A stretch of 64,000 nt of DNA, from assembly GCF_031583575.1 (NCBI RefSeq), contig NZ_CP134146.1, forward strand, positions 1,054,001 to 1,118,000, given 5' to 3'. Source of the DNA: Thalassotalea nanhaiensis. GTDB taxonomy: Bacteria > Pseudomonadota > Gammaproteobacteria > Enterobacterales > Alteromonadaceae. The translations under genes were made by a program, and so were the position numbers. Shown here in pieces: positions 18,663 through 23,179 of this stretch. How positions within the stretch are numbered: position 1 is the stretch's first letter; each line of letters begins with the position of its first letter. A model generated the notes under the pieces. That model was not told the origin of the DNA. It worked only from the letters and a program-made list of their open reading frames with translations, and ran no database searches.

Positions 18663-20603
18663 ATGAACGAATTAGAAAAGTTTTATCCGATAAAAGATGC
18701 TGCAAAATCACATAGTTATTTGGATGAACCAACATACAAAGCGATGTATCAACAATCGATTACTGATCCTGATAAATTCTGGAGCGAGCAAGCTAATGAA
18801 TTTTTAGATTGGTATAAACCGTTTGATCGGGTAAGCAACGTTGACTTTAATCGAGCTGATATTGAGTGGTTCAAAGGTGGCCAATTAAACGTTAGTTATA
18901 ATTGTATAGATCGCCACTTAAAAGAGCGCGGTGAGCAAACGGCGATTATATTCGAAGGTGATGAACCCAGCGATACCAGAAACATTTCTTATAATGAGCT
19001 GCATGAACAAGTATGTAAGTTTGCCAACGTATTAAAACAGCGAGGTGTTAAAAAGGGCGATACCGTGTGTATTTATATGCCAATGATCCCCGAAGTTGGT
19101 TATGCCATGTTAGCCTGTGCCCGCATTGGTGCAGTACATTCCGTTGTATTTGGTGGTTTTTCTACAGAGTCAATCAAAGCTCGAATTCAAGCCGCTGATT
19201 GTAAGGTTGTGATCACTGCTGATGAAAGTGTTCGTGGCGGCAAGGTTATCCCTTTAAAAGCCAATGTAGATACTGCAGTAAGCGACTGCCCTAATGTTCA
19301 TTCGGTAGTTGTTGTTGCTCGCACTGGTGCTGATGTCGCTTGGAATGATGAAATAGATGTAAATTATCAGCAAGCGATGAGTTCAGTTTCTGCAGTATGT
19401 GAACCAGAAGTTATGGACGCAGAAGATCCGTTATTTATCCTTTATACATCCGGCTCAACAGGTGCTCCTAAGGGCGTTGTCCATACTTGTGGTGGTTATC
19501 TGTTATATGCTGCCATGACACATAAATACGTATTTGATTACCGTGACGGCGATATTTACTGGTGTACTGCTGATGCTGGTTGGATCACCGGTCACAGTTA
19601 TATTTTTTATGGTCCGTTAGCTAATGGTGCAACAACGTTGGTATTTGAAGGTGTACCAACATACCCTGATGCAGGTCGTTGTTGGGATATGGTACAGCGT
19701 CATAAAATTAACGTGTTTTACACAGCTCCTACTGCCATCAGAGCATTAATGGGCATAGGTGATGAATATGTTTTAGATAAAGATTTATCATCTCTGCGTC
19801 TGTTAGGCACAGTGGGTGAGCCAATAAATCCAGAGGCTTGGCATTGGTATTATGAAATTGTTGGCAAAAGTAATTGCCCAATTGTTGATACCTGGTGGCA
19901 AACTGAAACCGGCGGTATTTTAATTACGTCACTACCTGGCTCTGCTGGTATGAAACCTGGGGCTGCTGGATTACCTTTCTTTGGTGTTCAACCAGTAATT
20001 ATCGATAAAGAAGGTAACGAGCAAAGTGGTGAAGCGCGAGGTGCATTAGTGATGAAGGGCAGTTGGCCTGGACAGATGCGCACCTTGTATGGCGATCATG
20101 ATCGTTTTCATCAAACTTATTTTAGCCAATGTGCTGGTTACTACTATACTGGCGATGGCGTGCAACGAGATAAGGATGGATATTATTGGATCTTAGGCCG
20201 CATTGATGATGTGTTAAATGTTTCGGGGCATCGTTTAGGTACCGCTGAAATTGAAAGTGCGTTAGTACTTCACCCTAAAATTTCTGAAGCTGCCGTTGTC
20301 GGTTACCCTCATGATATTAAAGGCCAGGGCGTTTATGCCTATGTCACCTTGATGCATGATGAAGTTGAAAGTGAAGAGCTTATCAGTGAACTTAAAGCAT
20401 TGGTTGCAAAGGAATTAGGCAGTTTTTCAAAGCCAGATCTAATTCAATGGGCACCAGGATTACCAAAAACTCGTTCAGGAAAGATAATGCGCCGTATTTT
20501 GCGTAAAATTGCTGAGAATGACTTAGGAACTTTAGGTGATACTTCTACACTGGCAGATCCCAGCGTCGTAGAAGACTTAATCGAACGTCGATTACTTCGT
20601 TAG
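18663..20603 (+). CDS. acs: Acetyl-CoA synthetase (AMP-forming)
   Basis: Activates acetate to acetyl-AMP and then acetyl-CoA in the cytoplasm. The 646-aa length is typical. Motifs: the N-terminal ACAS region ([20 protein letters not shown]), the P-loop [17 protein letters not shown], the acetate pocket region [11 protein letters not shown], the hinge [20 protein letters not shown], and the C-terminal TRSGKIMRR, whose lysine (Lys607) is the usual site of regulatory acetylation. Tryptophan in the WWQTE motif favours acetate over longer acids. Monocistronic, ended by a strong terminator. Confidence 0.95.
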
Positions 20604-20637: not shown

Positions 20638-20662
20638 AACGGAGGTGTAAGCCTCCGTTTTT
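20638..20662 (+). terminator. Intrinsic terminator after acs
   Basis: Stem AACGGAGG / CCTCCGTT with a 6-nt loop and a T tract, 35 bp after the acs stop. Confidence 0.88.
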
Positions 20663-20824
20663 CGTTAAAAAACCTACTTTGATATATGTAATTACAATTT
20701 GTATAAAAATAAAACTTGCCAGCATAAACTAAAAACTGCTACAAATACCTATCAGCTCTGTTTTAGAGCATGCGAGTTTTGGCCAGACCTTATAATTTCT
20801 GGTTCGTATAATTAATAGAAAGAT

Positions 20825-20881
20825 ATGCAAATTCAAAATTTAAACCTCCGATATTATCGCTATACCTATCTTTATTACTAA
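20825..20881 (+). CDS. Tyrosine-rich leader peptide upstream of aroF-tyrA
   Basis: An 18-codon open frame that reads MQIQNLNLRYYRYTYLYY and stops with TAA, 79 bp before the aroF start. Six of its last nine codons are tyrosine (residues 10, 11, 13, 15, 17, 18), five TAT and one TAC. A weak purine-rich site (GAAAG) precedes the ATG. The composition and the position in front of the tyrosine-sensitive DAHP synthase and prephenate dehydrogenase genes are those of an amino acid attenuation leader. I see no GC-rich terminator between it and aroF, so control would probably act on translation (see the pairing feature). Confidence 0.75.
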   Translation: MQIQNLNLRYYRYTYLYY

Positions 20882-20954
20882 ATTTTATTTAGTACCCCCT
20901 GCTGTATCTTATTAATTTTAAAAATTTTCAATCAACAACAAAACTTATATCGGA
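20847..20954 (+). promoter_or_regulatory. Candidate tyrosine-responsive translational attenuator of aroF-tyrA
   Basis: Bases 20847-20854 (TCCGATAT), spanning codons 8-10 of the Tyr-rich leader peptide, are a perfect 8-nt complement of 20947-20954 (ATATCGGA), which contains the GGA that serves as the aroF ribosome binding site seven bases before the ATG. A ribosome stalled at the first Tyr codons would cover the upstream strand and leave the binding site free; without stalling the two strands could pair and block initiation. This is inference from complementarity and position. Confidence 0.5.
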
Positions 20955-20960
20955 AAAACT

Positions 20961-22031
20961 ATGCACACTAGCAAACTTAACGACGTTCATGTTAATTCAG
21001 AAGAAGTCTTAATTACTCCAAACCAGTTAAAAGAAAAATTACCATTGAGCCAATCTGACCGGGAATTTATTTTAAATTCACGTGAGGTGATTTCAAACAT
21101 TATTCACAAACAAGACTCTCGTCTGTTGGTGATTTCGGGCCCATGTTCGGTCCATGATGTCGAAGCGGCAAAAGAGTATGGTCGTAAACTCAAAGAGTTG
21201 CATGATAAGTATAAAGATACTTTATACATTGTTATGCGTGTTTACTTTGAGAAACCACGCACTACCGTTGGCTGGAAAGGGTTAATTAACGATCCTCACA
21301 TGGATGGTAGCTTTGATGTAGCTGCTGGCTTAGAAACCGCACGTGAACTGCTTATTTACTTAACAGAGCTGGGCTTACCATTAGCAACCGAAGCATTAGA
21401 CCCAATTTCGCCACAATACTTAGCTGAATTATTCAGTTGGTCTGCTATTGGTGCACGAACTACAGAATCACAAACACACCGTGAAATGGCAAGTGGTTTA
21501 TCAATGCCAATTGGTTTTAAAAATGGTACGAATGGTTCATTAGGTGTTGCAATTAATGCGATGCAATCGGCTGCTTCATCACACCGTTTTATGGGCATTA
21601 ATAAAGAAGGCCAAGTAGCCCTACTTAAAACCTCAGGAAACCCTGATGGGCACGTTATCTTACGTGGTGGTCAACAACCTAATTATGATTCTGTTAATGT
21701 TGCTATGTGTGAGCAAAGCCTAGATAAAGCAAAGTTGGAGCAGGCATTGGTTGTAGATTGTTCTCATGCAAATTCGAGCAAAGATCACAACCGTCAACCA
21801 TTGGTTGCTGAGAACGTTGTTAATCAAATTTGTGAAGGTAATAAATCAATCATAGGGCTTATGCTGGAAAGTAATTTAAATGCTGGTAACCAAAGTTCAG
21901 ATTTACCAAAATCAGAGCTTGCTTACGGTGTGTCAGTAACAGATGCATGTATCGATTGGGCTGCAACAGTGGATTTGTTTGAAAAAACTCATGCTAAGCT
22001 TAAAGATATTTTACCAACACGCATTGGCTAA
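20961..22031 (+). CDS. aroF: 3-deoxy-7-phosphoheptulonate synthase (AroF/G type)
   Basis: First enzyme of the shikimate pathway: condenses phosphoenolpyruvate and erythrose-4-phosphate to DAHP. The 356-aa type I sequence shows LLVISGPCSVHD, MRVYFEKPRTTVGWKGLINDP, WSAIGARTTESQTHREMASG, GFKNGTNGS, and VDCSHANSSKDH, the metal- and substrate-binding signatures. Its position directly ahead of tyrA, as in the aroF-tyrA operon of enterobacteria, and the Tyr-rich leader argue for the tyrosine-sensitive isozyme. The isozyme call is by context, not by sequence of the allosteric site. Confidence 0.93.
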   Translation: MHTSKLNDVHVNSEEVLITPNQLKEKLPLSQSDREFILNSREVISNIIHKQDSRLLVISGPCSVHDVEAAKEYGRKLKELHDKYKDTLYIVMRVYFEKPRTTVGWKGLINDPHMDGSFDVAAGLETARELLIYLTELGLPLATEALDPISPQYLAELFSWSAIGARTTESQTHREMASGLSMPIGFKNGTNGSLGVAINAMQSAASSHRFMGINKEGQVALLKTSGNPDGHVILRGGQQPNYDSVNVAMCEQSLDKAKLEQALVVDCSHANSSKDHNRQPLVAENVVNQICEGNKSIIGLMLESNLNAGNQSSDLPKSELAYGVSVTDACIDWAATVDLFEKTHAKLKDILPTRIG

Positions 22032-22051: not shown

Positions 22052-23179
22052 ATGACAACCTTTGATAAAAAACTACAACAATGTAGAAATGACATCGACG
22101 AAATTGATCAGCAACTGGTTAACCTATTGGCAAAACGCCGAGAAGTAACCTGTCGGGTTGGTGAATTGAAAAGCCAAGTTGGTATGCCAATTTTTGCACC
22201 TGATCGTGAAAATCAATTACTGGCTAAGCTTGCCAAGCAAGCTCAGGCTGTTGGTTTGTCAGTGCCTTTAGTTGAGGATGTGTTTCGCCGCATAATGCGT
22301 GATTCATACTCTTCGCAAGATGAACAAGGCTATCAATGTATAAACCCTGATGCAGGTAAAGTTGTGGTTATTGGTGGCCAAGGCCAACTTGGCCAAGTGT
22401 TTGTCGATTTATTTACTCGAACCGGCTATCAAGTATCAATACTTGAAAAAGATGACTGGCAAAATGCTGACAGCATCTTTGCGAATGCAGGGTTAGTGAT
22501 TGTCGCTGTACCAATCAATTTAACTGAGCTTGTTATCAGCAAGTTATCAAACTTGCCGATTGATTGTATTTTAGCTGATATAACCAGTATTAAAGCTAAG
22601 CCATTGCGAGCAATGATGGCAGTCCACCGTGGACCTGTTGTTGGTTTGCACCCTATGTTTGGCCCAGATGTTACTGGTTTAATTAAACAAACCATTATTG
22701 TTTGCCATGGTGAACAGTTAGACAAGTACCAATGGTTGCTTGATCAGTTTACTGTGTGGGGCGCGTTAAACTATGTGGTAAGTGCTAAAGAGCATGATGA
22801 AGCTATGGCAATGGTCCAGGTTATGCGTCACTTTTCAACAGTGAGTTATGGTTATCATTTGATGCAAGAAGATGTAGAGCTAGAGCAGCTACTTGCGATG
22901 AGTTCACCTATTTATCGGCTTGAGTTGGCTATGGTTGGGCGTTTATTCGCTCAAGATCCCAACCTATATGCTGATATCATATTTTCAAATCCGGATAATG
23001 TGGTGATGATGAAACGTTTTGCCAATCGATTTGTGGAACTGTTATCATCAGTGGAGCAAGGCAATAAATCAGATTTTATTGCAAAGTTTAAGCAAGTAGC
23101 GGATTGGTTTGGCGATGATGCGCAAAACTTCTTACTAGAATCCACTTCATTATTGGAAAAAGCTCGTGAACATAAATAA
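22052..23179 (+). CDS. tyrA: Bifunctional chorismate mutase / prephenate dehydrogenase (T-protein)
   Basis: Converts chorismate to prephenate and oxidatively decarboxylates it to 4-hydroxyphenylpyruvate for tyrosine synthesis. Residues 1-90 are an AroQ chorismate mutase ([29 protein letters not shown], with the catalytic Arg and Lys pattern). From about residue 105 comes an NAD-binding fold ([17 protein letters not shown]) and then a prephenate dehydrogenase region with [10 protein letters not shown]. Starts 20 bp after aroF; its end overlaps the next gene by 14 bp. Confidence 0.95.

Follow-up and report, generated by a model that had tools for sequence, protein, structure and literature searches.

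A tyrosine-rich leader peptide with its stop codon in a conserved hairpin precedes aroF-tyrA in Thalassotalea and related genera and is a likely sensor of charged tRNA-Tyr

The aroF-tyrA genes of Thalassotalea nanhaiensis were found to be preceded by an 18-codon frame that starts with an ATG at 20825, ends with a TAA at 20879-20881 and carries six Tyr codons among its last nine; 79 nt separate its stop codon from the aroF ATG (20961). Positions refer to the window, i.e., the whole 64,000-nucleotide stretch of DNA that was analyzed, which comes from a genome assembled as a single contig of 4.3 Mb. Rereading of the sequence bore out the frame, the Tyr codons and the 79-bp distance to aroF-tyrA given in a preliminary description of this DNA. 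Judging from the sequences compared here, a leader peptide that senses charged tRNA-Tyr is likely to control aroF-tyrA. The sensing part of this proposal is the firmest: the leader is packed with Tyr codons, stands in front of tyrosine-making genes and is kept in relatives, and a ribosome translating it would therefore very probably gauge the tyrosine supply. The fuller picture is put forward tentatively: a Tyr leader, with its stop codon set in a conserved hairpin and no intrinsic terminator, would have replaced TyrR in Thalassotalea, relatives would run both systems, and the output would be the uncovering of the aroF Shine-Dalgarno sequence. The features of the locus are as follows.

20716..20745, + strand: possible promoter, TTGCCA-N18-TACAAA, with TG ahead of the second hexamer (by eye, weak)
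20825..20881, + strand: leader peptide frame MQIQNLNLRYYRYTYLYY, including the stop codon (direct reading; kept in 13/15 Thalassotalea and, in varied form, 47/117 family loci)
20847..20854, + strand: TCCGATAT, located at the first Tyr codons and complementary to the Shine-Dalgarno region of aroF (inverted repeat I19)
20849..20878, + strand: putative control codons CGA TAT TAT CGC TAT ACC TAT CTT TAT TAC (RYYRYTYLYY; YY in 44/47 leaders)
20876..20894, + strand: hairpin H1, arms 20876-20883 and 20887-20894, burying the leader stop codon (inverted repeat I15, covariation)
20882..20948, + strand: C-rich, G-poor spacer from the leader stop to the aroF start region, without intrinsic terminator (C 0.18, G 0.04)
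20947..20954, + strand: ATATCGGA, aroF Shine-Dalgarno region, partner of 20847-20854 (inverted repeat and duplex search)
20961..22031, + strand: aroF, Tyr-sensitive-type DAHP synthase (NCBIfam NF009395/TIGR00034; structure comparison)
22052..23179, + strand: tyrA, bifunctional chorismate mutase/prephenate dehydrogenase (NCBIfam NF008400)

The nearest solved structure to AroF was a Tyr-sensitive DAHP synthase (514 bits, versus 379 for the next group). Upstream of the leader, the gene of an acetate-CoA ligase stops at 20603, and an intrinsic terminator of 9 bp lies at 20638-20659, between that gene and the leader, so that the leader and aroF likely form a transcript separate from the upstream gene. 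Inspection by eye showed a block resembling the candidate promoter in several Thalassotalea loci, and a weak Shine-Dalgarno sequence for the leader itself; a consensus promoter scan returned 0 in the region of 20716..20745 (shuffles, 2.2).

Among the 1071 ATG frames of 8-40 codons on both strands of the window, only the leader had six Tyr in its last nine codons; the runner-up, with five Tyr and two nested starts (3353/3392), is antisense to a 319-aa frame. When each aroF upstream region was compared with 100 dinucleotide shuffles, p ≤ 0.05 was reached in 12 of the 15 Thalassotalea loci, in 21 of 44 other loci of the same AroF clade and in 5 of 57 in the remaining family (all five being leaders of genera g34, g45, and g50), but in none of 40 loci from other families. 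A chance Tyr frame was thus ruled out by the uniqueness of the frame in the window and the shuffle tests. A known Rfam element was also rejected, as no family exceeded its threshold anywhere in the window; between 20600 and 21000, searched to E 5, only ARRPOF was matched, at 14.5 bits (threshold 127) and outside the leader. RYYR-like matches numbered 50 in the host genome, versus 84 for the reversed pattern.

The preliminary description had made its reading depend on the Tyr codons being conserved in relatives that keep aroF-tyrA. This check was run, and a Tyr-rich leader was kept at 13 of the 15 loci of the genus and at 47 of the 117 readable loci of the family. In the genus, where each of the 15 genomes has one close aroF ortholog (79-100% identical), the leaders end in (F/L/I)RYYRx(T/S)(Y/H)LY(Y/W) after a variable start and count 18 codons in 11 of the 13 and 20 in the other two; these rows are related and not independent. 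At one further locus (L007) the leader is cut short, MHYQLVHFRYYN, and at the last (L016) there is none; both also lack a TyrR box ahead of aroF.

For the family, 119 aroF loci were read (15 from Thalassotalea and 104 others), and L041 and L050, in which the contig begins inside aroF, were dropped; the count covers the family genomes in which aroF was matched at the threshold applied, 38 of 147 giving no match. Candidates were ATG, GTG, or TTG frames of 7-60 codons with at least 3 Tyr in the last 14 residues, from which leaders were chosen by eye for their place. L007 was left out as cut short, and so were nine other frames (L052, L054, L065, L068, L075, L088, L092, L097, and L100), on the grounds of a GTG/TTG start, a wrong place or an overlap with aroF, L068 being short and of unusual make-up. 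The 47 include L033 and L076, added by eye, and L069-L071, added later; L032, L033, L034, and L076 were retained for their place and make-up although their last 12 codons include just two Tyr. The tree, terminator, spacer, and TyrR counts use 44 leaders, L069-L071 being counted there as leaderless, and L075 is also absent from the TyrR count and the shuffle test.

The 47 leaders span 17 genera, 14 of them within one AroF clade, and the other 70 loci are leaderless by our count; a tyrA match followed aroF at 47/47 leader loci and 69/70 leaderless ones. Leader sequences are diverse across the family (RYYYYLPFFC, YRYYYLPYFS, RYYRLNSFFSK, RFYYYLSFYC, GYYRTYFYYYC, RYPPYYYHYYW, THYYYFYY), and named carriers are Thalassotalea, Colwellia species, and Alteromonas sp. 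a30. On the AroF tree, a single clade of 60 rows holds 39 of the 44 leaders. The tree as a whole requires at least 12 changes, which indicates that the leader is commonly lost or regained. Outside the main clade, unlike Tyr leaders were seen in L124 and L131 (g45), L127 and L129 (g34), and L118 (g50), and those of these three genera possibly had independent origins. In genus g14 (L044, L051, L052, and L054), CGATATTATC is kept before aroF alongside strong TyrR boxes, in a frame for which a canonical start is missing from three of the four genomes (TTG in L052); it is either a decayed leader or one with a non-standard start.

Beyond the family, 40 of 147 genomes with an aroF match were read at the level of the order, all from other families and spread by hand. 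Under a looser rule, 5 of these 40 loci (L143, L151, L154, L155, and L168) had a 3-Tyr frame, with GTG/TTG starts or in odd places, and these were taken as chance. Of the 79 named loci scanned (L195 was left out as too short), 7 had 3 Tyr and p ≤ 0.05, including L210 and L249, which look like chance. ATG frames with at least 3 Tyr near the end were absent from all Vibrio and enterobacterial loci of this set, and no clear leader was seen in Colwellia maritima and C. psychrerythraea GAB14E. A covariance model matched, at E ≤ 0.01, only the aroF site in the host genome and 15 of the 147 family genomes (12 at aroF and 3 weakly elsewhere); at E ≤ 0.001 it matched 1 of 274 class genomes, the host's own. 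Since this model misses many leaders found by reading, it says little about distant leaders. The three weak matches away from aroF (G048:C1:86050-86129, G047:C19:212155-212230, and G035:C1:2711472-2711548; E 0.001-0.009) could be other leaders or chance.

Tyr makes up 35% of the last 12 leader residues, versus 3.3% in 7 window proteins, a descriptive comparison given that the leaders had been picked for Tyr. The last 12 codons hold on average 4.2 Tyr, 1.4 Phe, and 0.2 Trp, and Phe (3.4-fold) and Arg (2.6-fold) are enriched as well. The first YY pair stands 8-10 codons before the stop in 34 of 44 leaders (overall range 3-12), so that H1 would be free under a ribosome stalled there. The Arg codon ahead of YY is CGA in 32/32 RYY leaders (20849-20851 in the window), whereas CGA accounts for 19 of 111 Arg codons in 7 window genes; this invariant codon may slow the ribosome, serve the RNA, or be inherited.

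Hairpin H1, which was absent from the preliminary description, takes the stop codon into its 5' arm, and all three letters of the stop are paired in 39 of 47 leaders. Its energies were below those of shuffles in 47/47 leaders (mean z -2.45). In an alignment of 15 loci, its covariation score was 0.434, versus 0.232 ± 0.031 for shuffled alignments (0/500) and 0.05-0.24 for slid versions; four of its eight pairs change on both sides, a count that by itself is not above shuffles (214/500). Compensation can be read directly, as a last codon TAC goes with GTA in the 3' arm, and TGG with CCA or similar. When the downstream side was swapped in from another genus, the mean stem dropped from 6.6 to 5.1 pairs (300 draws, maximum 6.0). 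In genus g26 (L063 and L064), the frame is closed immediately after RYYY, by TAG in one genome and by TAA in the other, with the hairpin located further downstream at what appears to be a former stop position. H1 resembles the 1:2 hairpin of the trp attenuator, which also takes in the leader stop codon.

The presence of TyrR boxes was analyzed with the TyrR consensus TGTAAA-N6-TTTACA. The best match was 8-9/12 in 15/15 Thalassotalea loci, the same as in shuffles. Matches of at least 10/12 were found in 0/15 Thalassotalea loci versus 86/101 other family loci, and beside the leader in 27 of 31 leader loci outside Thalassotalea, this threshold being soft, as the best of 50 shuffles often reached 10 or 11. 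With boxes at chance level in all 15 loci of the genus, a control mode other than the TyrR control of E. coli, as raised in the preliminary description, is plausible. A protein with the PF18024 HTH family, presumably of the TyrR type and not exclusive to TyrR, was present in 147/147 family genomes with one to eleven matches each, 5 genomes of Thalassotalea among them, and the best match of the host genome lies inside a 521-aa frame. The regulator has thus probably been kept in Thalassotalea and its aroF site lost. According to PMC5343134, aroF-tyrA is among the most conserved TyrR targets, and trp and pheA are named as attenuated; the target operon is the same as here, but TyrR is a protein that acts at the promoter and its boxes are missing in Thalassotalea.

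How a stalled ribosome may act on aroF is suggested, in Thalassotalea, by a complementarity between the first Tyr codons and the aroF Shine-Dalgarno region (core TCCGAT with ATCGGA). The best duplex of the leader start sits at the first-Tyr spot in 9 of 13 Thalassotalea leaders, and the duplex beats synonymous re-codings (p ≤ 0.05) in 9 of 13, versus 1 of 34 leaders of other genera; L008, L013, and L014 are without this pairing. From these sequences, we infer that the leader is translated, that ribosomes stall on it, and in which direction control runs. When Tyr-tRNA is short, a ribosome on the 18-codon leader would stall where the Tyr codons begin (RYY...) and cover TCCGATAT, which would otherwise be able to pair with ATATCGGA at the aroF Shine-Dalgarno sequence; when Tyr-tRNA is plentiful, it would reach the stop codon and depart. 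The loop that separates the two arms would be shortened by H1. aroF would be free for translation when the ribosome stalls, and its start could be hidden once the leader has been translated in full, a translational attenuation in place of TyrR repression. We regard this output as possible in Thalassotalea, at a confidence well below that given to the sensor. With a stalled ribosome imposed, the mean Shine-Dalgarno pairing of the 13 Thalassotalea leaders was predicted to change from 0.57 to 0.43 (hand average), with a smaller change in the window (0.44 to 0.36); the predicted direction is right (starvation turning aroF on) and the strength modest. Once folded, the 191-nt leader is no more stable than shuffled sequences (z -0.05), and the 8-bp helix is absent from the minimum-energy fold of the window leader. 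As the mechanism of all leaders, Shine-Dalgarno hiding was rejected, since pairing in 1 of 34 leaders elsewhere means that it cannot serve the other genera. The same logic is found in ermC-type translational attenuation, in which a ribosome stalled on the leader by a drug frees a hidden ribosome-binding site; at aroF, the stall signal would instead be tRNA shortage, and the helix is only 8 bp and was seen in Thalassotalea alone.

The idea of a Tyr attenuation leader raised in the preliminary description was supported, with one correction: the Tyr-rich leader is kept in relatives, but the lack of an intrinsic terminator behind it sets it apart from a classical attenuator. Any attenuation at aroF would have to be translational or Rho-dependent. 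A terminator scan gave no terminator-like site in the window spacer and none in 39 of 44 leader loci; the other five sites are weak, four of them being H1 itself with a poor tail. This absence also fits an output in which Rho loads on the C-rich, G-poor 3' half of the leader and the spacer once the ribosome leaves, and stops transcription before or in aroF, while a ribosome held up at the Tyr codons partly covers the site and prevents the stop. Such a route could work in every genus, unlike the Shine-Dalgarno pairing, and the spacer has more C than G in 44/44 leader loci, versus 55 of 73 counted leaderless (means of C 0.228 and G 0.084 versus 0.190 and 0.151; C/G ratio 2.7 versus 1.26). This bias is, however, a weak sign confounded with genus, and the hairpin at the stop codon is unexplained by Rho; we regard this output as unlikely, though more probable than the other alternatives.

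Classical transcription attenuation with a terminator missed by our scans would follow the logic of the trp and his leaders, which are present in Thalassotalea, and L014 does have one plausible terminator, 6 bp long, after H1. In PMC2659441, the 5' region of Shewanella aroF is moreover tabled as 'Attenuator sensing tyr-tRNA', a row that cites a 1980 E. coli study. Against this, terminator-like sites occur in only 5 of 44 leader loci, whereas under the same rules the scan was positive in 11/11 Thalassotalea trp/his leaders (8/8 with WWW and 3/3 with a His run; L270 weak), and a missed terminator appears improbable. For this control, 5/5 His-model and 15/29 Trp-model matches were read, all under the Rfam thresholds. 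Trp or His runs were lacking in 9 of these 20 loci, 6 of which also showed a terminator-like hairpin. Because the Trp and His models contain the terminator, the control measures scan sensitivity only. The host's own trp leader (L272, MIFQQAKQLAGLNIWWWHNLS, C1:1380870-1380960, - strand) is followed by a 12-bp terminator-like hairpin, and in three Thalassotalea genomes a His leader with an HHH run comes with a strong terminator-like hairpin (L257, L259, and L261), each of these below the Rfam threshold. From such leaders, the host genome does seem to use classical attenuation, though not at aroF-tyrA.

It is about equally improbable that free tyrosine triggers ribosome arrest by the nascent peptide itself, in the manner of TnaC and tryptophan. 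Residues between the Tyr are partly conserved in Thalassotalea, and the constant CGA and the usual YY position described above would suit an arrest peptide, but the distance from YY to the stop is inexact and the residues near the stop vary widely across genera. Least probable of all is a conserved DNA or RNA element that is open in frame by accident, to which the invariance of CGATATTA in the 15 aligned loci, third codon positions included, and the persistence of CGATATTATC in g14 would point, since outside Thalassotalea the letters change while the Tyr codons stay, leader sizes differ by whole codons, and the stop is set in H1 in 39/47.

Control by leader peptides is textbook knowledge for Trp, Phe, His, Leu, and Thr. 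The aroF leader shares with the ribosome-mediated attenuators of trp, his, and pheA (Trp_leader RF00513, His_leader RF00514) a short frame and a run of codons for the product of the operon, and differs from them in its Tyr codons and the lack of a recognisable terminator. The C. glutamicum aroR-aroF leader likewise precedes a DAHP synthase gene but has a Phe-Tyr-Phe run and responds to Phe, not Tyr (Neshat 2014, per PMC11802643), and the Acholeplasma uORFC-13-1 motif also has an upstream frame before aroF, but with Phe codons and an apparent intrinsic terminator, in another phylum (PMC8632094). Attenuation of aroF-tyrA has been proposed in E. coli (Camakaris 1980, as cited in PMC2659441 and PMC8632094), and attenuators have been predicted before Vibrio aroF-tyrA (Merino database, in PMC1173090). 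These proposals concern the same operon and the same idea, but no Tyr-rich ATG frame was found in the Vibrio and enterobacterial loci that we scanned. A description of a Tyr-specific leader was not found among the matches listed in the open-licence literature; an earlier mention is possible, for example in subscription surveys of proteobacterial attenuators.

If the proposed sensor is real, it would fill the Tyr gap among amino-acid leader peptides, and it would be an amino-acid leader whose output is other than an intrinsic terminator. It would also show that, inside one bacterial family, control passed from a repressor protein to sensing by the ribosome, with intermediates that carry both.
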